Shown here piece after piece: positions 446 to 43,500 of a stretch of DNA of 64,000 bases. Every line of letters begins with the position of its first letter. Position 1 is the first letter of the stretch. The stretch lies in assembly GCA_029582155.1 (NCBI GenBank), contig CM055901.1:3039001-3103000 (forward strand), given 5' to 3'. Source of the DNA: Panopea generosa. Taxonomy: Eukaryota > Mollusca > Bivalvia > Adapedonta > Hiatellidae. The position numbers and the translations under genes are program-made. The notes below the pieces were generated by a model, which was not told where the DNA came from, searched no databases, and worked only from the letters and a program-made list of their open reading frames with translations.

Positions 446-1543
446 CATATTTCTGTATTTCAGGGAAAGTCAGATGGTTTTGGATGACACGGCATTCAGG
501 TAAGTCATATTTCTGTATTTCAGGGACAGTCAGATGGTTTTGGATGACAATGCATTCCGGTAAGTCATATTTCTGTATTTCAGGGAAAGTCAGATGGTTT
601 TGGCTGACACGGCTTTCAGGTAAGTCATATTTCTGTATTTCAGGGAAAGTCAGACGGTTTTGGATGACACTGCATTCCGGTAAGTCATATTTCTGTATTT
701 CAGGGATAGTCAGATGGTTTTGGATGACACGGCATTCAGGTAAGTCATATTTCTGTATTTCAGGGAAAGTCAGATGGTTTTGGATGACAATGCATTCAGG
801 TAAGTCATATTTCTGTATTTCAGGGTAAGTCAGATGGTTTTGGTTGACACGGCATTCGGGTAAGTCATATATCTGTATTTCAGGGAAAGTCAGATGGTTT
901 TGGATGACACGGCATTCAGGTAAGTCATATATCTGTATTTCAGGGAAAGTCAGACGGTTTTGGATGACACTGCATTCCAGTAAGTCATATTTCTGTATTT
1001 CAGGGAAAGTCAGATGGTTTTGGATGACACGGCATTCAGGTAAGTCATATTTCTGTATTTCAGGGAAAGTCAGATGGATTTGGATGACACTGCATTCGGG
1101 TAAGTCATATATCTGTATTTCAGGGAAAGTCAGATGGTTTTGGATGACACGGCATTCTGGTAAGTCATATATCTGTATTTCAGGGAAAGTCAGATGGTTT
1201 TGGATGACACTGCATTTGGGTAAGTCATATTTCTGTATTTCAGGGAAAGTCAGATGGTTTTGGATGACACGGCATTCGGGTAAGTCATATTTCTGTATTT
1301 CAGGGAAAGTCAGATGGTTTTGGATGACACGGCATTCGGGTAAGTCATATTTCTGTATTTCAGGGAAAGTCAGATGGTTTTGGATGACACGGCATTCAGG
1401 TAAGTCATATTTCTGTATTTCAGGGAAAGTCAGATGGTTTTGGCTGACACGGCTTTCAGGTAAGTCATATTTCTGTATTTCAGGGAAAGTCGGATGGTTT
1501 TGGATGACACGGCATTCAGGTAAGTCATATTTCTACCTTTCAG
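446..1543 (+). repeat. 60-bp tandem array; each unit holds a complete MSH5 exon with both splice sites
   Basis: Eighteen units of exactly 60 bp with no indels. Each unit has an acceptor (t/atctgtatttcag), a 36-nt exon body and a GTAAGT donor. Exon bodies begin at 464, 524, 584 and so on every 60 bp to 1484. All 18 acceptors and all 18 GTAAGT donors are intact. Spacing between donor and next acceptor is 24 nt including the splice signals. Units differ only by substitutions; copies 3 and 17 share the same two changes (GCT and GCTTTC). Copies 8, 9, 12 and 13 have an atctg acceptor variant. Confidence 0.97.
464..1519 (+). CDS. MSH5: MSH5 micro-exon, 18 candidate copies (36 nt each)
   Basis: Read in the MSH5 phase (1 nt, 11 codons, 2 nt), a typical copy gives [11 protein letters not shown] plus a split codon. 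Joined to the exon at 2542 this gives [14 protein letters not shown], matching the MutS family start of the lever/core domain (human MSH5 DQDTYSVLQIF). No copy has an internal stop in this frame. Because the exon is 36 nt and enters and leaves in the same phase, including any number of copies keeps the frame, with AGG (Arg) at copy-copy joins. Retaining the 24-nt spacer puts TAA immediately after the exon. The sequence does not show which copy or copies are used. Confidence 0.85.
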
Positions 1544-4500
1544 CTTCCTTATGAGGAATACTTGAACCATTTTTTTTTCTCATTTCTTTGTTTTTGAACA
1601 TGTTTAGGTAATTTTTGATGAGGAGCCATGACGAAATATTTGCTTGATTGATCAACTGATTATTATTTCCAACCAGGGTCTGCCAAACTTCTGGGACCTC
1701 AGATTTCTATCATCTGTATGGCTTGTCAAATTATTTGAGCTAATTTTCTTATCTGTTGCTAGTTGTATGTCATAGTTTGCCATCTTTCCTTGTAGTCTGC
1801 AATTTCTTACCGCTGGGCAGATTTTATTGAAACCTGGTCACAGTGTTCCTAGGATGGTGCCCTTTCAGATTTGTGTTTTTGTTGTTGCTGCCTATAAGCC
1901 TGTAGCCTGATTAAATAAAGTGTGAATGGACAGCTTTTTTATTATTTGGATATCCAGTCGTCTGTCCATAAGGCTGGCTGGGGTGAACCGAGATGCAAAA
2001 TAAAAAATCTTCATAAGGCTCCATAGAGATGTGCAATATGTCGCACTGTATAAGCCTGCTGCTACTAAAATAAGACTTAATTTATGAAAATTAAAAACAT
2101 CACCCTTTCTGAACTTATTATACAATACTGAACAAACTGTATGTGCATGCTCCTTGGGTCAATCTCTCTTATTTATGTTTTTTGTTCTCATCAAATTTTC
2201 AAAATGGTTGTCACTCGGAGGCAGCGTTTACATCGAGCTACAGTTAAACCTGTCTTAAGTAGCCAATCAAGGGGAGGAACAAAAGTGGCCTTTTTAAGAC
2301 AAAATGTTGCTCAATACAGGTTAATTTGCTCTGAAGGCACAGAAATGGGAAATAGCAAATGTGGCTGTTTAAGATGAGTTGCTGCTTAATAGAGGTTACT
2401 GCTTAAACATGTTTGACTGTATAGAGAAATGTATAGAAACAGATTCATAACTTGTTTAATAGATCTTGTGTTAAATGGATACTTGTGCAAGATCCTATAC
2501 TGAAGTAACTGTAGAATCATTGAACCATTGTTTTATTTCAGTGCCTTGCAGATATTTCAGAGAGAGTTTCACCCATCTGTATATAAAACTGGTTCCAGCA
2601 ACAGTGCTAAAGAAGGTTTAAGTCTCTTTGGTATGTTCTTTTTTAACAACATTATTTTCTTGTATCTTTCCATTTTATTTTTATATGGATGAAGAGGTTT
2701 CACTCATCTCAGATGAATGCCCAGTAAACAGTATTTTCACCTTCATTTTGGTTCATCTTACACATTTTGAATAGTTCGGGTCCAAACGTAGTTGGTTTAA
2801 CAGTTTTTATTTGAAATATTTTACAGTATTAAATAATTCTATACAAGCAATTTAGTCAAAAGACAAGTTTATAGAATTCCTCTCCTTAAAGGGAATATAT
2901 CTGGATTTTTCAAACTTTTAAAATTAGCTAAAAACATTTTTTTCTATGTATCATACCTGTATATACTCACTGACCCCACATTGCCAAAAAGATATCTATT
3001 TTAACATGACAAAATATTATATTGAAAAGGGATTTCCTGACTTGGGTTACGTGCTTAGGTTAGACTAAAATAGATTTCTGGCTAAAAGTTGCACTTTTTG
3101 TGATGTATAAAATGAGTTATGTCATTTCATTTTGATTTCAGTTTGATCCGTTAAACAGGTTTGCATCTAGTAAAAATGGTTTCATCTTAGAAAGAGTCCA
3201 CATGACGATGCAAGGGTTGTCAAACCCTATTTAAGTGCTGTCTATTTTCAGAATAGGGACTTCATTTCAAGTTTACAACTTTAATTAAAATATTGATTTT
3301 GTCGCATTTTGGTGGATTTGGCAAATCAACAATTCAGATTTTATTTATAATGATAACAAGATGCTTTTTATCCATTTTAAAGGGAGTATATCAGGAAAAA
3401 AATGCTATAAATGTCTTATAAATAAAATTATTTGTAAAATAGATTAAAAGCATCTTATTAGCATAAATAAATAAAATCTGAAATTTTTAGTGTATCAAAT
3501 CACATGAACCTGTATGACGGATCAATTTGAAATCAAAATGAAATCATGTGACTCATTTAATACGTCACAAAATATGTTGCAATTTTAAGCGGGAAATATA
3601 TTTCAGTCTAACCTAGGTGCGAAGCCCAAGTTAGGAAACCCCTTTTCAATATGTTAGTCACAACCTATTTGGGAAAAAAATGTTTATTGCCAATTTTGAT
3701 TTTTTTGAAAATTCCTGATAAACTCGCTTTAATAAGTTTGACAAGTTTATTTCCATTATTTCCAGAAGGTCTGAGACCCACGAGGAATAGTCACGTATAT
3801 ATAATTACAAATATGGTGACACGACCAAATAAACATCATATAACATAATTATATATGTTATCTAAAAAGCAAGCGCCACATATGATCAAGACTACATTGG
3901 CGTAAATTACAACCATATTTTCTAAGAAATGAACAGAATTCAGCAGTGAGTGTTTAAGATATCAAACATTTCCAGAGCGGTTCCTTATCCCAATAGTGGT
4001 AGTGGGAGTAGAGTAGAATTACCGCTGCCAACAGGAGAGGGACACTCTTCCCACACAACTACCCCCAGGTTGCCTCCTCCCCCCTAATCAATCAAGCCCT
4101 CTTACACCCATTAAAGTATCATTTACCAACAAAATACTTATATTTAAGCTAAGTTACCCGAAAAGGCAAGCCGTTTTTTTTAAAATGAAATTTTATTCCT
4201 TTCTAAAGTGTTATAATTGTTAAAGGGAGACAACATCTACAAATGTTTCTAATTTGAATTGGATGGGTTATCCACCTTAGAAAGCTGTTTGAATGGTAGA
4301 CATGTTTTCGTATTTTTGGATTTCCATCATAAATTCATTTAATTTTTTTATTAACTGACTAATTTATTTATTTAGGTATTAGCTGTATACTAGTGAGTAT
4401 TATTTTATGAACACTTTTCTTATTGAACGATAGTTTTTCTACTAATTTTGTCAATTTTTCTATTTAAACTTATATCAAAGAAATTGAATTCTATCTCATA

Positions 4501-28500: not shown

Positions 28501-31500
28501 TAGCCACACACCCCTTTGGTGTACTAAAAACATAACCAGGTACCCCATTGGTACCATGATAACAACAGGTACGCCATTGGTACCATAATAATATAGGGTA
28601 CCCCCTTAGTACCAAATAAAAGCAGGTGCCCCTTTGACACCATAATACAACCAGGTAACAGCGCAACTTCACCTACTTCCTGTTTCAATATAAAGTAGTC
28701 TTACATAAACGGGTGAGACAATGTAAGAACGCCTAGCCCTTAACGCTCTCTGGCCAGTTCTTACATGCTCCAAAAACCACTCCCAAAAAACTAATTTTTA
28801 GCCGCATGAGTCTCCTCCATATCACAGATGACTGCTATGGTATGTTGAAAGACCCATGGGCATGCAAAAGAATGGATTTGAAATATGCCAATACATAAGT
28901 AATATTTCGTTATGCCTCCGATCGCATCCAAAAACGTAAGAATTTTCCGCAGACATGACAAAGAGAGATGGAAAGAAGAAAAGGAAAGAAAGCAAAAGAA
29001 TAATGAAGAAAAATAGGAAATAGCAACTTTCATAGATACATAACAATAAAATATACAGTTCAAACTATTTGTCATTATTACGTTTGCCTAAGACAGTCAC
29101 TTTGTTAGCTCTCGTTGTTTTCACTTGGAACTATATCAACGTCAGTTCCTTTCCGCACCTGCTGGCACATTTGAAAATGTATCATGTTCACACTGAATTG
29201 TTACTGTTAATCGTTTAAACTCGACGGTTCACAAACAACACCTGGACCAAAATGTTCATTGCCTGCTCAGTTCCGAAGACGAGATCGCCACATTTCGGAC
29301 TGTTGTAGTGCGAAGCCTTTGTGTCTTTGAACGTGCCTCAAGTCCATGGTGTATAACATGTACTGAAATTAAATAACTGACCAACAGTTAACATGTTAAT
29401 TCTGTATGCATAAAATATAGGAGATTTTTAGAAATTGTAACTTGGTTAAGGGTGCGGTGGGTGGGTTGATGTTTTGCTTTTACCCGTGCAATATGAAAGT
29501 GCGAGGGTGACGTGGAGGTCACATGGCCTTATATACCCGACCAGTTCACGTCCGATATCGCGAGGATTAGTTACTATAGAGAAACTAACGTCTTTAAAAT
29601 ACAACTTGCTTCTGTAAAGCGTGTCCAAAAATATACGGAAATTGTTACCAGAATAACCAAGATTAATCTTTAAAATTAATCTCTAATATTTCACCAGCTG
29701 TACTAGTTGTTATAAATCTAATTAAGGAAAATGAGGCTCATGGTAATTCCAGATAATGAATTAACATTTTCCAGGTTGATTTTCAAGAGTCGTCTCTTCA
29801 AGGACGCTTTGTTGTTAAACCAAATGTGGATGCAAGACTGGATAAAAGTAAGATGTATCATCTGATTGCAGTGAAAACTAGTTACATTTCAAAAAGCTTA
29901 GTTATTACAAGAGTAAATACAGTTTCCAAGTGTAAAAAGAAATGAAACCCATTGCTGTATTTGTTTTGCCATGTCCATTTAAAGAATGATGAAGGTGCAT
30001 ATAGACCTCTGTCTGTTCATTTGTCTTTGCCAGATGTTAAACAATTGGGTTCCAATTAATAACTTATGAAAGGGACAATGTATTTTATTAATATGTTGTT
30101 TGTAGCTATATAATTCTAAAATACAGGAGTAAACTTAGATTAGCTGAAACAAACTCACCTCCGCAATGGTTTTATTTAAAGAAGAGTTATAAATATTTAT
30201 TCCGATGAATATCATTGCAGTGATGGAGTCCCAAGATGTTTTTAAAATAGAAAATTATAAAAATGACTACTTTAACAGAAATAAGCATCTAAATAATAGT
30301 CTTTTGAATGACAATGCAAATTGCAGAGGTAGGCTGATTGTGAAACAACCAATCAAAAAAGGTTATCTGGATACAGTTATATTTTTGTAGAACCTTTCAA
30401 GACGTTTGTCTTTTAGAAAAGGAAGCATTGCAGATGATCAGACTGCAGGGCTTGAAAGCTACTAGTCCTCCCTTACCAACATTTTTAACTGAATACTTAA
30501 AATCAAAGAAATATTAAGGTCATTCCTTAAATCTTACTTGTCCTGATCAAATGGTCACTCGTCATGGCGAGCGGACAAGTGGAATGTTCAAGCTCCGACT
30601 AGAAATATTGAAATAAGTATAGGTTAAAGTTTAAGACAGACTGGTTCTCTAAATGAGAACTTATTATGCATTTTATTATATAAATAATATTATATAATAA
30701 TAAAAAAGTTTGGTGATACTGTAGTTGATAGAAGTCTTGCCACTTATATTTGCATGCTTTACATTACATTTTATTTTCAGAGAAGAGAATATTCAGCGGG
30801 CTTCCTGACTTTATGACTAAGGTTGCTCATGAAGAACTGAACAAGTTGGGAAATGAAGTCACTGAATGCTCGGTACTATACATGCCTCAGGTATTGTGCT
30901 CTTTATGTCATGGGTCATGTGCTCTGTTTTCTACATGCCTCAGGTAATGTGTTGTGCTTTTTATGTCATGGGTTATGTGCTCTGTTCTCTACATACTTCA
31001 GGTAATGTGTTGTGCTCTTTATGTCATGGGTCATGTGCTCTGTTCTCTACATGCCTCAGGTATTGTGCTCTTTATGTCAACGGTCATGTGCTCTGTTCTC
31101 TACATACTTCAGGTAATGTGTTGTGCTTTTTATGCCATGGGTCATGTGCTCTATTCTCTACATGCCTCAGGTAATGTGTTGTGCTTTTTATGTCATGGGT
31201 CATGTGCTCTATTCTCTACATGCCTCAGGTAATGTGTTGTGCTCTTTATGTCATGGGTTATGTGCTCTGTTCTCTACATACCTTAGGTAATGTGTTGTTC
31301 TCTTTATATCATGGGTCATGTGCTCTGTTCTCTACATACCTCAGGTAATGTGTTGTGCTTTTTATGTCATGGGTTATGTTCTCTACATGCCGCAAGTAAT
31401 GTGTTGTGCGAATTCATTATCTCATGAGAGGTAATTAGCCAAAAGAACCGTAAACCAATCGACCATGGAGGACCGAGAGGTATATAAAGTACAGAGCATA

Positions 31501-34500
31501 ATACCCATGACATAAAATGAAAATTGGGAGAAAATTTACTAGTTTCTTATAGAAGAAGGTGCTCCATACACTTCATACCTCAAGTAGGTGCTCTGTACTC
31601 TTCATACCTCAAGTAGGTGCTCTGTACACTTCATACCCCAAGTAGGTGGTCTGTACTCTTCATACCTCAAGTAGGTGCTCTGTACACTTCATACCCCAAG
31701 TAGGTGGTTTGTACTCTTCATACCTCAAGTAGGTGCTCTGTACATTTCATACCTCGAGTAGGTGCTCTGTACTCTTCATAACTCAAGTAGGTGCTCTGTA
31801 CTCTTCATACCTCAAGTAGGTGCTTTGTACACTTCATACCCCAAGAAGGTGCTCTGTACTCTTCATACCTCAAGTAGGTGCCTCAATTAGGTGCTCTGTA
31901 CACATCATACCCCAAGTAGGTGCTCTGTACACATCATACCCCAAGAAGGTGCTCTGTACACTTCATACCTCAAGTTGGTGCTCTGAACTTTTCATACCCC
32001 AAGTAGGTGCTCTGTACTCTTCATACCTCAAGTAGGTGCTCTGTTCACTTCATACCTCAAGCAGGTGCTCTGTACTCTTCATACCTTAAGTAGGTGCTCT
32101 AATCGGTTCATACCCCAAGTAAGTGCTCTGTACTTTTCATACCTCAAGTAAGTGCTCTGTACTCTTCATACCTCAAGTAGGTGCTCTGTTCATTTCATGC
32201 CCAGTGTAGGTGCTCTGTTCTCTTCATATCTCAAGTAGGTGCTCTGTACTCTTCATACCCCAAGTAGGTGCTCTGTACTCTTCATACCTCAAGAAGGTGC
32301 TCTGTACACGTCATACCCCAAGTAGGTGATCTGTTCACTTCATACCTGAAGTAGGTGCTCTGTACACTTCATACCTCAAGTAGGTGCTCTGTACACTTCA
32401 TACCCCAAGTAGGTGCTCTGTACTCTTCATACCTCAAGTAGGTTCTGTACTCTTCATACCTCAAGTATGTGCTCATACCCCAAGTAGGTGCTCTGTACTC
32501 TTCATACCTCAAGTAGGTGCTCTGTACACTTCATACCTCAAGTAGGTGCTCTGTACACGTCATACCCCAAGTAGGTGCTCTGTACTCTTCATACCTCAAG
32601 TAGGTGCTCTGTATTGTTCATACTCAAGTAGGTGCTCTGTACGCTTCATTCCCCAAGTAGGTGCTCTGTACTCTTCATACCTCAAGTTGGTGCTCTGTAC
32701 ACTTCATGCCAAGTATAGGTGCTCTGTACTCTTCATACCTCAAGTAGGTGCTCTGTACACTTCATACCCCAAAAAGGTGTTCTGTACTCTTCATACCTCA
32801 AGTAGGTGCTCTGTACATTTCAAACCCCAAGTAGGTGCTCTGTACTCTTCATACCTCAAGTAGGTGCTCTGTACACTTCATACCTCAAGTAGGTGCTTTG
32901 TACACTTCATACCCCAAAAAGGTGCTCTGTACTCTTCATACCTCAAGTAGGTGCTCTGTATTGTTCATACTCAAGTAGGTGCTCTGTACGCTTCGTACCC
33001 CAAGTAGGTGCTCTGTACTCTTCATACCTCAAGTAGGTGCTCTGTACACTTCATGCCAAGTATAGGTGCTCTGTACTCTTCATACCTCAAGTAGGTGCTC
33101 TGTACACTTCATACCCCAAGAAGGTGCTCTGTACTCTTCATACCTCAAGTAAGTGCCTCAAGTAGGTGCTCTGTACACATCATACCCCAAGTAGGTGCTC
33201 TGTACACATCATTCCCCAAGTATGTGCTCTGTACACTTCATACCTCAAGTAGGTGCTCTGTATTCTTCATACTCAAGTAGGTGCTCTGTACTCTTCATAC
33301 CCCAAGTAGGTGCTCTGTACTCTTCATACCTCAAGTAGGTGCTCTGTACATTTCATGCCCAGTGTAGGTGCTCTGTTCTCTTCATACCTCAAGTAAGTGC
33401 TCTGTACTCTTCATACCTCAAGTAGGTGCTCTGTACACTTCATGCCCAATGTAAGTGCTCTGTACTCTTCATACCTCAAGAAGACGCTCCATACTCTTCA
33501 TGGCTCAAGAAGGTGCTCTGTACTCTTTGTGCCTCAAGTAGGTGCTCTATACACTTCATACTGCTACGACTCTTCAGATCTGAAGTAGTAGTCGTATGCT
33601 TCATGTCTCTGGTAATATGCTCTGTTATCATGCTTTATTCATGTCTCAGGTAAATTGCTAAGGTAGCATCTCAACATAAATGAACTTATAACTTTAAAAC
33701 AATGTAATTCTGACATAACTTCCTGTTTGTAGTATACATAGATTGGCTATCTACTGGCACTCCTGAAACTGACATTTTTTCCTGTATGTAAAATATTCTA
33801 GATTGGTTACAAGTACTTGCTTGGAATACCTGAGACTGCCATAATTTCCTGTATGTATTATATTCTAGATTGGTTACCTGCTGGCAAAACCTGAGACTGC
33901 TATGATTTCCTGTATTTTATTCTAGATTGGTTACCTGCTGGCAATACCTGAGAGTGCCATAATTTCCTGTATGTATTTTATTCTAGATTGGTTACCTGCT
34001 GGCAATTCCTGAGACTGCCATAATTTCCTGTATTATATTCTAGATTGGTTACCTGCTGGCAAAACCTGAGACTGTCATAATTTCCTGTATTATATTCTAG
34101 ATTGGTTACCTGCTGGCAATACCTAAGACTGCCATAATTTCCTGTATTATGTTCTAGATTGGTTACCTGCCGGTAATACCTGAGAGTGCCATAATTTCCT
34201 GTATTATGTTCTAGATTGGTTACCTGCTGGCAATACCTGAGACTGCCATAATTTCCTGTATTATATTCTAGATTGGTTACCTGCTGGCAATACCTGAGAC
34301 ACTATAATTTCCTGTATTATATTCTAGATTGGTTACCTGCTGGCAATACCTGAGACTGCTGTGATTTCCTGTATTTTATTCTAGATTGGTTACCTGCTGG
34401 CAATACCTGAGAGTGCCATAATTTCCTGTATGTATTTTATTCTAGATTGGTTACCTGCTGGCAATACCTGAGACTGCCATAATTTCCTGTATTATATTCT

Positions 34501-37500
34501 AGATTGGTTACCTGCTGGCAATACCTGAGAGTGCCATAATTTCCTGTATTATATTTTAGATTGGTTACCTGCTAGCAATACCTGAGTGTGCCATAATTTC
34601 CTGTATTTTATTCTAGATTGGTTACCTGCTGGCAATACCTGAGACTGCCATAATTTCCTGTATGTATTTTATTCTAGATTGGTTACCTGCTGGCAATACC
34701 TGAGACTGCCATAAGAGCAGATCCAGATGACAACCACCAGATTGAAGGACTCGAGTTTGTGGTATGTAAGACGATTATTTGAGATATTAACTGTCTGTTT
34801 GTATTATTATAAAATCTGTTTGTATAGAATTATTTCATAATGATCTGCATAAAGTATTCTCGACTATTTCATTCCAAAGTAAATACAGCCAAACCTTTGA
34901 AAGTGGTCATGTCTATTGAGCAGTCTATTGTGTCTCCCATTACATGTACAATACTTTCAGAGCAAATTAACCTGTATTAAGCAACTTATCTTTAAAGGCT
35001 ATTTTACCCCCTCCCTTGACTTGCTGTTCAAGACAGGCTGGACTGTGTTATTTATAAAGATGGTGACTGAGGTTCTGACAAGTACTATACATTTTCAAAA
35101 TTTGTCATGTCCAACTCAATTTAAAGTACCGGTATTGTATCATGTCATTTTGAATTGTGGCTACAATTTCTTTAAAGAAAATCTTACAAACTTGTATACA
35201 TGTTGTGGCAGTTTTTTGTCAGCAGAAATGCTACTTATATATTACATATCAGATACCGTGTAATACTGACATAATTGTATAACTCAATAACACAGTATGA
35301 TTGAACAGTTTATTAATAAGTTTTATTGAAAATATTTATTAAAAATATGTGCATCAATCCTGGCCTGGAATTTGATTATCTTAATCAAGAAGTCTGCTGG
35401 CTATAATTTGTATCGTATGCTGGGCACCCTTCTTGACGTTGCTATTTTAGATGACGTCAAAGGGTTTCTTGCATGCATGAAATATGTTGCTGTGTTTAAT
35501 CAAACTTTGTCAATAACGACTAGCGATACCCAGTATAATTTTTCCCCAGATTATAATTTGTTACTATCTAATGTAACAATTGATCTAATACTTGATATGT
35601 TCAAATATATTAAGTGACCTGTAAAGTACATTTCAGGACAGTCACAATAGCATCTTCTTATTATGTGGTTTATATTCTTTGTAAGTCAATTATGCATGGT
35701 TTATAATCATCCTAGTTTGAATCCAACAATATGCTGAACTATAGAAATGCATGTACCAGAGGTAAGAAATATTAATAGTTTAAAGTTAGTTCAGTTACTA
35801 TAATTATCACTTGTGATATCATTTCATATGCATGGTGAGGCACAAAAGGTCACTGAGGTCATCAGATGTGGATTATATTATACCAGTATTACCATCTTTT
35901 GAAAGCTCTTGAAACACACACACACACATTTTTTTCGTAATTTTTAAAGTTTATAATTTGCCACATATAATATAAGGCAACGATAATGCAAGGGAAATAA
36001 TTCAGTTGAACAAAATGTAAGTGAATTCAACTGATTTGTTTCCCTTCCCTGCTGCAATAACTTGAGTTCCCATATGCTGGTGCAGTGTTATAGATAAATT
36101 ACTTAAATTACTTAAATATATATATTTAGGAATCCTGAAATTGATTTTCAGGCCATCAGCTCAATGTAAAGGTCACTGTTATTAAGAATAAAAGAAAAAT
36201 TTCCTTCAAGATATCTTGATACAATTTCATGTTATGTAAATTGCTTAAATAAAAAAGTCTTGGATCGCTCTAGAGGTCAATGGTCAAGGTCTCTAAAAAT
36301 AGTAAAAATGACTCTTTATATAATATGAATCCCCACTGAAATATACTGATGACATTTTTATCTGGCCATGAAAATAAATGATCAGAATTTCCTAGAATAG
36401 CAACTCAATATCACATACCTGTTGTCATTTAAAGAATTGAATTCTAAGCATATTTAAGATGTTTTTTTTCATTTCTAAGCTACATTAGTATGACATTAGC
36501 TATGAAATGTGACAAGGACATCACATCTTTACCAATAGGGCATGTTAAGATTGTCTTGGTCTTCTTGTTACTTTTGATTTTGATGTTTATTTTTTTGTTA
36601 GTTTTACTGAATTTTGAATGTTTATATTGCATGATAGTAATACATATATTATTATACATGACTGAATAATTAAAACTGAAAACAGCACTTTGCTTTTTCA
36701 ATCATTGTATTATAACATGTGATTATAGTGAAGATTGATTGATTGAATATTTACCGTCATTTTTATGCCATCGAGGGCTAACAGATGATCAGTTAACCTA
36801 ACCACTGTTTTCTTGGATCCTGAAAGGTTAACCAGTACTCGAGCACACCCCAGCACTGCAATAACTAATAACTTTCCCACTTCAGCGTTGAGAGAGGAAT
36901 GATAGTGAGACACAATGTCGTATATAAACAATCAAGGAGTCTGTTGCAGGGCGGGGTTTTGAACTTAAGGCTCCTGGATTGATAGTCAGACGCGCTACTG
37001 ACTGAGCTAATCAGATCCAGCTTTTAGTGAAGAAAACACATGATTATCTATGATTATCTATACCTATGTATCATAGTAATATACTTATGAATATTTGTTT
37101 TAAAAATTTAGTCAATTGTGTGCTATCAAGGGCTAACAGATTGTCAGTTAACCTAACCAATTCTTTCCTCGGATCATGCAAGGTAAACCACTACTCGAAC
37201 ATACCTATCTCTGCAAGTAACTGATAAATTTCTCACTTGAATCAGTGGTGAGAAATGAATTAAAATAAGAAACAATGTCATACATCAATCATCATGATGC
37301 CTAGATTAATAATCACACATGCTACCAACTGAGCTAACCAGGCCTGGCTATATACATGGTATGTTTATGTACATTGTGTTGTTTATCATTTTAAGGTCAC
37401 CTGAGACTTTGTCTCAAGGGACCTTTTGTGTTTGCCTTTTGTCCGTCCTTGCCGTCGTGCGTCTGTAAACAATTGACATTTTTTACTTCTTCTCAAAAAC

Positions 37501-40500
37501 TGTAAGCTCAATCATTATGATTGGTACCTAAGGATGAATTAAAATTGTGAATGGCATGGTCCCGACTCCCCTGGGGCCTTGGGGGCAGGACCAAAACAGT
37601 CAAATTCAAGGTAAACTTTGAAAAATCTTCTTCTTACTATAGGAAGCACAGGGAAACAAGTGGTGAGCATGGTTATGGACGTATATGAGTCCTTTATAAA
37701 ATTTGTGATTTGCATGTCCCTGGGTCTCATGGTTTGGCTCATCGGGTTGGGTCTACTTAACTTAATCTAATTTAGACAAAACAACATGTTTTATTGACAA
37801 AGTTGGAAAATAGATTCATATAGCTTTATGTCATCAAGGATAATCAGGTGACCATTAAGGCGCATGGGCCTCTTGCGGTAAGCTAATGGGAAGGATTTAA
37901 TTATAAATCAACTTATTGTATATTCATTTTGCCTCCTTATCACTTGGTCCTGTTTCAATAACATAATTAAGTATATTACCTAATCAGCATTCATTTTAGT
38001 TATATGAAGAACAAAAACTCTTACACAATAATAAGTAATTTTTGTAAACGAATAAAAATATTTTGGTAACAGTTTTGTGATTAATTGATTAACCTGAACA
38101 TTACTAGACCACTGTGAACACACATGTTGCTGATATATACTGCAATATTTCATTTTACAGTTTAATGAATTTAAATGTGTGACTAACAAGCAGAATAATA
38201 TAGGTGTACATTAATACATTTTTAAATTTCTTAGAAGAGTTTTACATATAAAATAAGCATATTATGGGATAAATGGCCAGGAAAGAAAAACTGCTTTATT
38301 TTTATTTCAGAATTGGACTCTCTGCTTGGTGACACACGATGTGACATAACAGGTATTTCTTTTTTTTTTCAGCAGGGATTGAAAATGTGCAAAAAGTTAT
38401 TTTTTTACCTTGTAACTAACCTTTTTTCTGTCTGGTCACAATGCTTTTTTAACTTAGTGTACAATCCATGGTTCTAAAATAAAAATACAAACACTTACTG
38501 TTTAAGAATAATAAAGAATTATGTTTACTTATTTTAATGCAACATGTTATTATTATCTGCCTATTAACCCTTTACTCCATAGATACGCGTTTTCCCGCAC
38601 CAATCACAGGAGGCCTTTGAAAACAGTGCAGGAAGTGTTCGGTTTGCTCTGTCAGTTGATATAAACATAATTCACCCAAATCTTCAAAAGGTTTCTATAA
38701 AAGGTGTTCAAAGGTGTCATATTAGAGGTGTCCAAAGGCGCCTATATGAAGTAAATGGTATATATTTTCACATGTCTAAAATTTCACCCATGGTTGAAAA
38801 TATTTTTATGATATTTTCGCCCCCTGGAAAAATTTTAAACATAATTTTTTTCGTCATCTTTTTATGAAAGCAGAAATCATTTAACTTGATTTGAAGATGA
38901 TGAAGACATGAAAAGCTTATTAATGCAAGCAGAAAGGGTAAAAAATATAGTCCCTATAATATGATATCTCTGCCCACTAGAGGTATAACGATGCATTGCG
39001 ATTCACCTTTCCGCCGATGTGTGTATCAGGTTAAACTTCAAATAGGTAGTGATGCAATGAATTCTTTACTTAAATATTGCAATACCGATCGCCTTTTATT
39101 TTCACAGGCAATATGTATGGTGAAAAAAATGCCAGCCCTACTGCCCACCCCTCATTTCTTACAACAGATCTCTTATAGATTTTTGTTATTGTTTAAGTAT
39201 GGTGAGACATAATGTAACAGTTATTAAATATAAACTTTTTCTTTTAAATATAAAATGTGATTAATGATAATAATATAAATATATATGTGAGAGAGAATCC
39301 AAGTAGGGATGGGTGAACAAATGGTGTCAGTATAATGTGATTGAGTGGGGGTAGTAGGGTGCTGACACTTGCACTGTGTCAATGTAATGTGATTGGTTGG
39401 GGGTAATAGGGTGCTGACACTTGCACTGTGTCAATATAATGTGATTAAGTGGGGGTAATAAGGTGCTGACACTTGCACTGTGTCAGTATAATGTGATTGA
39501 GTGGGGCTAATAGGGTGCTGACACTTGCACTGTGTCAGTATAATGTGATTGAGTGGGGGTAATAAGGTGCTGACACTTGCACTGTGTCAATGTAATGTGA
39601 TTGGTTGGGTGTAATAGGGTGCTGACACTTGCACTGTGTCAATATAATGTGATTAAGTGGGGGTAATAAGGTGCTGACACTTGCACTGTGTCAGTATAAT
39701 GTGATTGAGTGGGGGTAATAGGGTGCTGACACTTGCACTGTGTCAGTATAATGTGATTGAGTGGGGGTAATAAGGTGCTGACACTTGCACTGTGTCAATG
39801 TAATGTGATTGGTTGGGGGTAATAGGGTGCTGACACTTGCACTGTGTCAATGTAATGTGATTGAGTGGGGGTAATAGGGTGCTGACACTTGCACTGTGTC
39901 AATGTAAAACAGTATAATTCAATACCTTCACCCTTTGATGATTCTGGAAATGTGTATGACTGCTGAGTTTTTGGTGATATATGTGTGAACTATTATATGT
40001 GTATGACTGCTGAGTTATTTGTGATATATGTGTGAACTATTATATGTGTATGACTGCTGAGTTATTGGTGATATTTTTGTGAACTATTATATGTGTATGA
40101 CAGCTGAGCTATTGGGTGATATATGTGTGAACTATTATATGTGTATGACTGCTGAGTTATTGGTGATATATGTGTGAACTATTATATGTGTATGACTGCT
40201 GAGTTATTGGTGATATATTTGTGAACTATTAAATGTCTATGACTACTGAGTTATAAGTGATATATTTGTGAACTATTATATGTGTATGACTACTGAGTTA
40301 TAGGTGATATATTTGTGAACTATTATATGTGTATGACTGCTGAGTTATTGGTGATATATTTGTGAACTATTAAATGTCTATGACTGCTGAGTTATTGGTG
40401 ATATTTTTGTGAACTATTATATGTGTATGACAGCTGAGCTATTGGGTGATATATGTGTGAACTGTTATATGTGTATGACTGCTGAGTTATTGGTGATATA

Positions 40501-43500
40501 TGTGTGAACTATTATATGTGTATGACTGCTGAGTTATTTGTGATATATTTGTGAACTATTTTATGTTAATGACTGCTGAGTTATTGGTGATATATGTTGG
40601 AACTATTATATGTGTATGACTGCTGAGTTATTGGTGATATTTGTGAACTATTATATGTGTATGACTGCTGAGTTATTGGTGATATATTTGTGAACTATTA
40701 TATGTGTATGACTGCTGAGTTTTTGGTGATATTTTTGTGAACTATTATATGTGTATGACTGCTGAGTTTTTGGTGATATTTTTGTGAACTATTATATGTG
40801 TATGACTGCTGAGTTATTGGTGATATATGTGTGAACTATTATATGTGTATGACTGTTGAGTTATTTATGATATATGTGTGAACTATTATATGTGTATGAC
40901 TGCTGAGTTATTGGTGATATTTTTGTGAACTATTATATGTGTATGACAGCTGAGCTATTGGGTGATATATGTGTGAACTTTTATATGTGTATGACTGCTG
41001 AGTTATTGGTGATATTTGTGTGAACTTTTATATGTGTATGACTGCTGAGTTATTGGTGATATATGTGTGAACTGTTATATGTGTATGACTGCTGAGATAT
41101 TGGTGATATATTTGTGAACTATTTAATGTCTATGACTACTGAGTTATAAGTGATATATTTGAGAACTATTATATGTGTATGACTAATGAGTTATAGGTGA
41201 TATATTTGTGAACTATTACAGACATGGAGACGGTGATCATGCACAAGTTACAAAACATCATTCTAGAACATACAGACATACTGATGGCAGTGCTGGACCT
41301 TGCTGCAGAGTTGGATTGGTATTAAATCTTGTGCAGTAATATTATGTTTTATTTTCATTTATTTAAGAATATACATAACATAATTTACAGTATTTTATTT
41401 TAGCAACAGTACAATTTAGCTAACACAAGTCATGCCCCTTCGTGTAAAGAACATGTTCTAGTGTTAGAGCGTCTGAGGAAGGATGGAAAGGGCCATGAAT
41501 TACATCCCCTGCCTTGGCCATGTGTTGTGTCAATGAGCAAGACACTTTATCTGCCTATGCTTAGTACTGGTTCCACTTAAAGAAAACTTCAAGTGTGATT
41601 TGTCTATGTTATGAGAACTGATTTCACTATCCAATGGTGCATAGCCCCATCCACCCACACCACCATCCACACACACACCCTCAACCCTTTAATTCCATAT
41701 CTTATTAATTTAGTTTAGTTTAAACTAATTTATTTTACTTCGATTGTGAAACAAGTTTTTACATCTTAAGCAAACCACACTCAAATTTTTCCTGGTTAAA
41801 ACCATTACTAAGCATATGCGGAAAAGTGTCTTTCTCAAGGACATCACACATAGCCGTGGCGGAGGATCGATCCCAACTGCCCGCCGATCATGGGTTCGGT
41901 GCTCTACCACTGGACCATGCGCTCCATATTTTATTAAGATCCATTATATGTCTACTGAAGATCTAGTGGATTCATCCCTGCTATTAATGCACAATAAATA
42001 AGATTACTAAACACTTATTTATGAAATCCAACATGGGGACTTGAACCCAGATTATGTTCATGAGAAGACCATGCAAGCCTTACTGCCCTGCCGAATATAA
42101 GGTTTCAAATAGTATAAGCAGGGCAGCATTACAGTGGATAGTGGGATAGTCCCTAATGCCAGGATTGTTGATCTGATCCAATGCTTGATCCCATGACCCT
42201 TCAGATACTACACATGGTACTGGTTCTAGTCAGGAAATAGGCTTGAGACAATTTATATAAGCTCTGAGCTTTCTTCTTAATCAAGCTAAAATAAATTGGT
42301 ATAAACTACACATTATTTGTTGTCTCCGTTTAATACATTATGTGAGTGCATTTCCTTTTAAATATCCAAAACAGGAATAAAAGTTAAACAAGAGATCTTC
42401 TTATATTATTCCTCACAACTTTTGTGATTGATCATGAACCAGTGGGCTGATGAAATTACATTTCTTTTGTAATTAGACCAATATGAGAAAAAGTATATTT
42501 TCAGTTTGTTGGCCTTGTCAACATGTGCCAGGGAATATGGTTACGCGAGACCTACCATGACACAAGATAATGTTGTAGAAGTGATAGGGGGAAGGTATAT
42601 TCTGCCAACTGAATTGTTTCAGTTCATCTTACAATTATAATTATGCTATTGTTGAATATGTTCTTTTCTTGTGTAATCCCTAAAGATTTGTATTGTACTG
42701 ATAATTATTTGTTGTTAACAGCCCCTTTGGCGTCTCTATGAATTTAGGGCTAACATGTGAGTTCGAATTTTCAAAATACATCGTACCAGTAATGATTTTT
42801 TTAGAGAACATATACATGCTTCTTCATTTTAATGTTGAATCTGTTTTTAGATCGCCGGGACGAAGTCCAAGGAGAGCTATTGTCATAACCCCGTTGGCGG
42901 CGTCGTTGTCGTCTTCTGTAGACACCCAGGTTAAACTTGCGTACAAGTTTCAGATATCTATGCAACCACTCATTGGATATGAATGAAACTTTGCATGTGT
43001 GTTTACCATCATCAATGGAACACACAGAGATAAGAACCATAAGTCTGGATTGCATTTTGGCACAGTTATGGCCCTTTTTGGACTTAGACACCCAGAGGCG
43101 AGCTTTATTGGTCTTCTGACAACTCTTGTTAAGATAATCAGATTTTGATGGGTTCTGTAAATGTTTTGTTTAACATCAGTTTAGAGGATAAACAAATACA
43201 TTTACATATTTCTTATTTCTGAAGTGAAGTCTTTACTAAGTTTTTTATGGCCTAGTAAGCTGAGGCACTGTCTCAAGATCACCTTACTGCTGAGGTTGTG
43301 GTTAACTCTAACCTAACTCCTTCCAAAAACTGAAAAAGTTTGCCAGTTATTAGTAGAAAGACAGTAGTTTTGCATCTGAAGTCTTCAACATCCCATATAT
43401 AACCTGTAAGGTACAGAACATTGCATTGAAACCATTCTTAAAAATCATAAGAATAAACAGGTTGCAATACATAATTGTATTATTTATATTGAACTTATAT

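Follow-up and report, generated by a model that had tools for sequence, protein, structure and literature searches.

How does the spliceosome read a gene in which one exon has become, along with its two splice sites, the unit of a tandem repeat? This question is raised by a 64-kb stretch of the genome of the bivalve Panopea generosa (C8:3039001-3103000, hereafter the window, to whose positions all plain coordinates refer; the assembly amounts to 1.47 Gb in 39 contigs), in which a 36-nucleotide (nt) exon of the gene MSH5 is present 18 times in a row at a period of 60 bp (array A). We give a probability of roughly 0.6 to the reading that this is an exon minisatellite which arose by ordinary growth and of which one copy would enter each productive mRNA, copy 1 being weakly favoured.

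Reading of the sequence, Tandem Repeats Finder (TRF) and the extraction of individual units gave concordant results, with a constant spacing of 60 and zero indels; TRF placed the array at 446-1534 (period 60, 18.1 copies, 94% matches, 0% indels). The T-rich acceptor of 18 nt ends in TATTTCAG and the donor is GTAAGT in all 18 units, and an earlier note on this DNA was thus right in describing 18 indel-free units with both splice sites intact. Head-to-tail units of 60 bp in 18.1 copies are what is understood by a minisatellite (units of ~10-100 bp, many copies), while the exon itself lies outside the strict definition of a microexon (up to 27-30 nt) and inside the wide one (up to 51 nt), as worded in those parts of the sources that were at hand. 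In a DNA search of the whole assembly, which skips very common words, the locus was unique. The motif CATATTTCT is present at both edges of the array and may be the microhomology from which it arose. That the animal carries fewer copies, or one, and that the rest was produced by the assembly appears very improbable, given 16 distinct exon changes spread over 13 versions, a total length of only 1.1 kb and the 40 arrays found per 200 kb sampled.

The repeat unit is, by homology, an MSH5 exon, and array A is therefore not a chance product. The gene model was built from 40 kb of added upstream sequence and protein guides and spans Mya arenaria MSH5 from residue 233 to the stop codon; N-terminal exon(s) ahead of that residue were not sought, so the model starts there. 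Its 26 exons, 36-150 nt in length, read through without a stop for 791 residues, and 596 of these are identical to Mya MSH5. The script required GT..AG ends and open joins, so that the 25 of 25 GT-AG introns are a condition and not a result. The best match of the model is MSH5 and Pfam recognizes MutS domains III and V (domain II reaches 23.2 bits, below the cut-off of 25), as expected of an orthologue. Its closest relatives among the 120 listed of 497 matches are bivalve proteins, from Mya and Mercenaria (68%) and Dreissena (64%). Protein or transcript pieces of the species itself were looked for and none appeared at match level, the best of the 120 listed homologs standing at 68% and a further search giving nothing over 65%. 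The exon preceding the array lies outside the window, 1.2 kb upstream (C8:3038160-3038269), and ends in DVKIFTL. Every one of the 18 copies is open in the MSH5 frame and joins this exon and the one at 2542-2630 in a single open frame. The assignment to MSH5 made in the earlier note and its statement that no copy has a stop are both borne out, the former by homology, by the open 26-exon model and by the join to ALQIF. A pseudogene or a second MSH5 was considered and rejected on the open model and on a genome protein search, which scores its best candidates only: of its 24 matches 20 lie in this gene, and the remaining four, 32-58% identical, fall at other MutS loci. No alternative, single-copy version of the exon was found in the introns on either side (best score 12, against 58 for the exon itself).

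Among the 120 listed and aligned homologs, 116 have exactly 12 residues at the place of this exon, so that one copy of it seems to be needed. As for the four exceptions, P0010 has 10 residues aligned although the full segment is present in its sequence, P0047 has 11 aligned, P0061 has none, and P0002, a Mercenaria MSH5 record labelled LOW QUALITY, is without exactly these 12 residues, in frame. The segment is also single in intron-free contigs of ~3 kb with long MSH5 open reading frames (e.g. P0006, P0011 and P0014). In the model it makes up residues 175-186, where MutS domain III starts (the domain match begins at 185), and it carries an almost invariant Asp (67 of 69 distinct homologous segments have D, the other two E). 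Skipping all the copies would also keep the frame, by a KIFTL-ALQIF join, and an array that disturbs exon definition could thus give an MSH5 without the 12 residues, as in the Mercenaria record. However, that record is the sole clean in-frame loss among the listed homologs and is of low quality, and the location of the segment and its Asp argue against its omission, so that we regard skipping as improbable.

The copies are adjacent, homologous and of the same length and phase, as is characteristic of mutually exclusive exons. From exon to exon there are only 24 nt, below the ~50 nt given as a steric threshold from 5' splice site to branchpoint in the available part of the source (PMC7969005). 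Neighbouring copies would therefore exclude each other, because an intron of this size lacks room for a 5' splice site and a branchpoint, in agreement with what had been claimed from the sequence. Retention of any of the 17 spacers brings in an in-frame TAA. For copies that are not adjacent, space is no obstacle (84 nt from copy i to i+2 and 144 nt from i to i+3); such joins could occur in principle, and that of copy 1 to copy 3 is open over the stretch inspected.

The reading that we prefer can be set out as follows. Slippage or unequal exchange would have amplified a 60-bp unit that happened to hold the whole symmetric 36-nt exon with both splice sites. The array would be tolerated because every unit is a complete, self-contained exon, and gain or loss of whole units preserves a correct exon and the frame. 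In the pre-mRNA one copy would be recognized as an exon and spliced to the exons on either side, whereas an exon spanning two copies contains the in-frame TAA and its transcript would presumably be lost by decay. Copy 1 is a candidate for the main copy, being the first to be transcribed, coding for the consensus peptide and having ordinary intron sequence ahead of it; that copies 2-18 are less used we hold at below even odds. Simple, home-made scores for branchpoints, donors and acceptors, with no trained model behind them, were compared among the copies. In copy 1 the site most like a branchpoint is TTTAC, which lies 41 nt upstream with no AG between it and the acceptor. Copies 2-18 have theirs (GATGAC, GCTGAC or GTTGAC) at 37 nt, inside the previous exon copy and with one or two intervening AGs, besides a weak AG-free site at 17 nt.

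The 18 copies had been described as equivalent, and this did not hold. There are 13 distinct exon sequences among them: copies 1, 8, 10 and 16 share one sequence, which encodes the consensus peptide, 3 and 17 are alike, as are 14 and 15, and copies 2, 4-7, 9, 11-13 and 18 each have an exon sequence of their own. Seven copies (3, 4, 7, 9, 11, 17 and 18) have a residue that none of the 69 distinct homologous segments shows, and in three (3, 7 and 17) the almost invariant Asp is replaced; the variants of the final residue (S, R, G, C and H) are each known from other proteins. Two particular patterns were seen in the copies. In copy 7 (824-859) a second GTAAGT has arisen through a base change, one base inside the exon, similar to a recursive splice site. 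At exon position 28, G and T alternate through copies 1-7 and the alternation restarts in copies 8-14 (array exons, 464-1519), perhaps a trace of growth in two-unit steps.

The differences are concentrated in the exon, with 12 of its 36 sites variable against 1 of 24 in the spacer (17 full spacers; hypergeometric P 0.006) and 16 distinct changes against one (binomial P 0.002). The exon changes comprise 13 nonsynonymous and 3 synonymous ones, to be compared with 85:17 possible single changes (plus 3 to stop); as judged from these counts, there is no sign of amino-acid constraint in them, nor of selection for diversity. We also considered a repeat protein coded in another frame or strand, given that open frames exist on both strands and that a 384-codon frame of the minus strand is open through array A. 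However, 60 is divisible by 3, so a frame that is open in one unit tends to persist; the repeat unit contains no ATG in the minus frame, and there is no synonymous excess (3/17). Coding on another frame was rejected, its chance being negligible.

The low variation of the spacer hints that the splice signals of many copies matter, since conserved splice signals with freely varying amino acids are the pattern expected from selection on many-copy splicing. Under this alternative many copies would be spliced at comparable rates, and the animal would make a mixture of MSH5 proteins differing in the 12-residue segment, from a mutually exclusive cluster grown by a minisatellite. The splice signals fit it well: the acceptors are nearly identical, and the donors score 5.0 in nine copies, 4.5 in eight and 3.7 in copy 9, the highest value being above all other donors of the gene (next 4.5). 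Besides, 11 of the 18 copies are limited to residues found in homologs. The loss of the Asp in three copies and a ratio of 13:3 so close to that of the possible changes speak against it, and we consider such open competition a possibility of clearly lower rank. More doubtful still is a live, self-mutating cluster whose size and sequence shift by unequal exchange while many copies are spliced; if it were real, recombination could reshape a segment of a meiotic crossover factor between generations.

Array A is not the only array at a splice junction of MSH5 (Table 1). In array B1 the true donor is the first, at 30891, and the other eight yield a stop or a frame shift. The unit of array C covers the acceptor and the first ~37 nt of its exon, and the last copy alone runs open into the true exon (34678-34761). 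As the alternatives give stops or frame shifts, exon definition in MSH5 must pick the site that adjoins the exon body in both arrays. On this predicted gene structure, only that site gives the MSH5 frame in B1 and C, and the gene is already relying on one site among many. Downstream of B1 there is another array (B2, 31553-33561), ~2 kb long, whose 29-bp units have the look of shortened and altered relatives of those of B1, and an 11-copy array of 52 bp shares its intron with array D.

Table 1. Position of array A, its parts and other array-associated features of MSH5 in the window.
Feature	Positions	Strand	Description
Array A	446..1543	+	18 x 60-bp units (18-nt acceptor CATATTTCTGTATTTCAG, 36-nt exon, GTAAGT); terminal diverged 18-nt partial unit
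Copy 1 of the 36-nt MSH5 exon	464..499	+	Consensus peptide; copy chosen in the gene model, residues 175-186; final codon uses the first base of the next exon
First 24-nt spacer	500..523	+	From copy 1 donor to copy 2 acceptor; in-frame TAA if retained
Copy 18 of the MSH5 exon	1484..1519	+	From unit extraction
Next MSH5 exon after array A	2542..2630	+	Acceptor TTTATTTCAG; begins ..ALQIF
MSH5 exon 14 of the model	30781..30890	+	..ECSVLYMPQ; array B1 starts at its donor end
Array B1	30867..31384	+	Exon tail and donor, ~58-bp repeat, 9 AG|GTA[AT]TGTG donors
Array C	33710..34714	+	Acceptor and exon start (IGYLLAIPE..), 17 copies at ~57 bp
Array D	39950..41218	+	47 bp x 27; stops 1 nt short of the AG (41220-41221) that closes the acceptor of exon 41222-41318

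Several results weigh against the preference for one copy, and for copy 1 in particular. Conservation of the spacer agrees better with the use of many copies than with that of copy 1 alone. The branchpoint-like motifs of copies 4, 8 and 18, with intervening AGs, outscore that of copy 1, and 13 of the 25 introns of the gene also have an AG after their best branchpoint-like site, so the branchpoint case for copy 1 is weak at most. In array C the AG is kept in all 16 upstream acceptors, each of which leads to a stop. To see how unusual the uneven variation of array A is, we used as a control 19 other arrays (period 20-200, at least 8 copies in register, at least 4 but at most 60% variable sites): 0.6% of the stretches of equal relative size were as extreme, which makes the test a fair one, but two of the 19 arrays, both in the MSH5 gene, contain such a stretch. 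The acceptors of array C bear on open competition as well: these decoys, apparently unused, are likewise intact, and intact splice sites are thus no proof of use.

The genomic background makes the origin of array A less exceptional than its structure. Tandem arrays make up 16.3% of the MSH5 gene and 23.7% of the bases in 20 random 10-kb pieces (200 kb; one piece was nearly all satellite, one had 2,500 N and two were array-free). A minisatellite-rich genome and three further arrays at MSH5 splice junctions mean that no special mechanism of origin is needed. Introns are reportedly also derived from tandem arrays, as is said to have been described by Zhuo et al. in 2007. Of the 14 arrays in the gene, 4 reach a splice site and together touch 5 of the 50, where random placement predicts 4.3 such arrays and 8.4 sites; a special targeting of junctions was consequently rejected. 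With 1 of the 26 exons of the model lying wholly inside an array, further such exons may be expected in this genome; at the other MutS loci none of the 16 exon matches touches an array (too small a sample for a conclusion). We also asked whether exon-like satellites form a genome-wide class. Clusters of donor-acceptor-donor motifs numbered 597 (299+298) against 637 (362+275) for a reversed control pattern, and with no excess over the latter the idea was rejected. Among the first places listed, units with donor- and acceptor-like motifs were seen in at least two arrays elsewhere, at C4:41825643-41828058 and C3:39749137-39749836.

Choice among near-identical splice sites, as governed by transcription order, exon definition, branchpoint context and position, is usually studied with artificial minigenes. 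Array A may serve as a natural test of it, with 18 near-identical complete exons, many of them marked by point changes, in a conserved gene that seems to need exactly one copy. It would also illustrate a way for a minisatellite to engulf a coding exon with the frame unbroken. The earlier note knew of no case in which a whole exon plus both splice sites had become a minisatellite, and none was seen either among the papers listed in a literature search. The nearest systems are compared here as far as the available parts of the cited papers describe them.

In earthworm metallothionein genes (PMC12783039), an invertebrate gene likewise combines tandem arrays with exon duplication: minisatellite-like repeats are present, and the fourth exons, which are duplicated, reportedly do not appear in the transcript. 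There, unlike in array A, the repeats lie in the first intron, have monomers of ~180 bp and do not have the exon as their unit. Schistosome micro-exon genes (PMC4350168) share with array A the small symmetrical exons that permit in-frame variation, whereas here a single exon of a conserved gene is repeated; the coding region is not made mostly of very small symmetrical exons, as the 26 exons of 36-150 nt encode a conserved MutS protein. Minisatellites at exon-intron boundaries of human segmental-duplication genes (PMC2812944), with a mean of 30 bp x 4 and found in young duplicates, also place repeat units at such boundaries, where they alter splicing and can make introns. Arrays B1 and C are nearer to these than is array A, which repeats a complete exon and both sites 18 times in a conserved gene.

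Steric exclusion has been described for exons 4a and 4b of OGDH (PMC7969005) and for 57 human clusters, or 9% (PMC5740500). As in the OGDH pair, neighbours in array A could not be joined for lack of space; in contrast, there are 18 copies instead of two, and only adjacent ones are surely excluded. Clusters of mutually exclusive exons reach 53 members in Drosophila Dscam and 10 in humans (PMC5740500). Array A resembles them in its tandem homologous exons, equal in length and phase, in the alternative protein segment that these would encode and in the prevention of joint inclusion of neighbours. It differs in that the exon, both splice sites and the spacer form one 60-bp satellite unit with a gap of 24 nt, and in that its copies, known from sequence alone, are 94% alike with no evidence of selection for diversity. 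Set beside those clusters, array A suggests how satellite DNA might grow into a large cluster of alternative exons.
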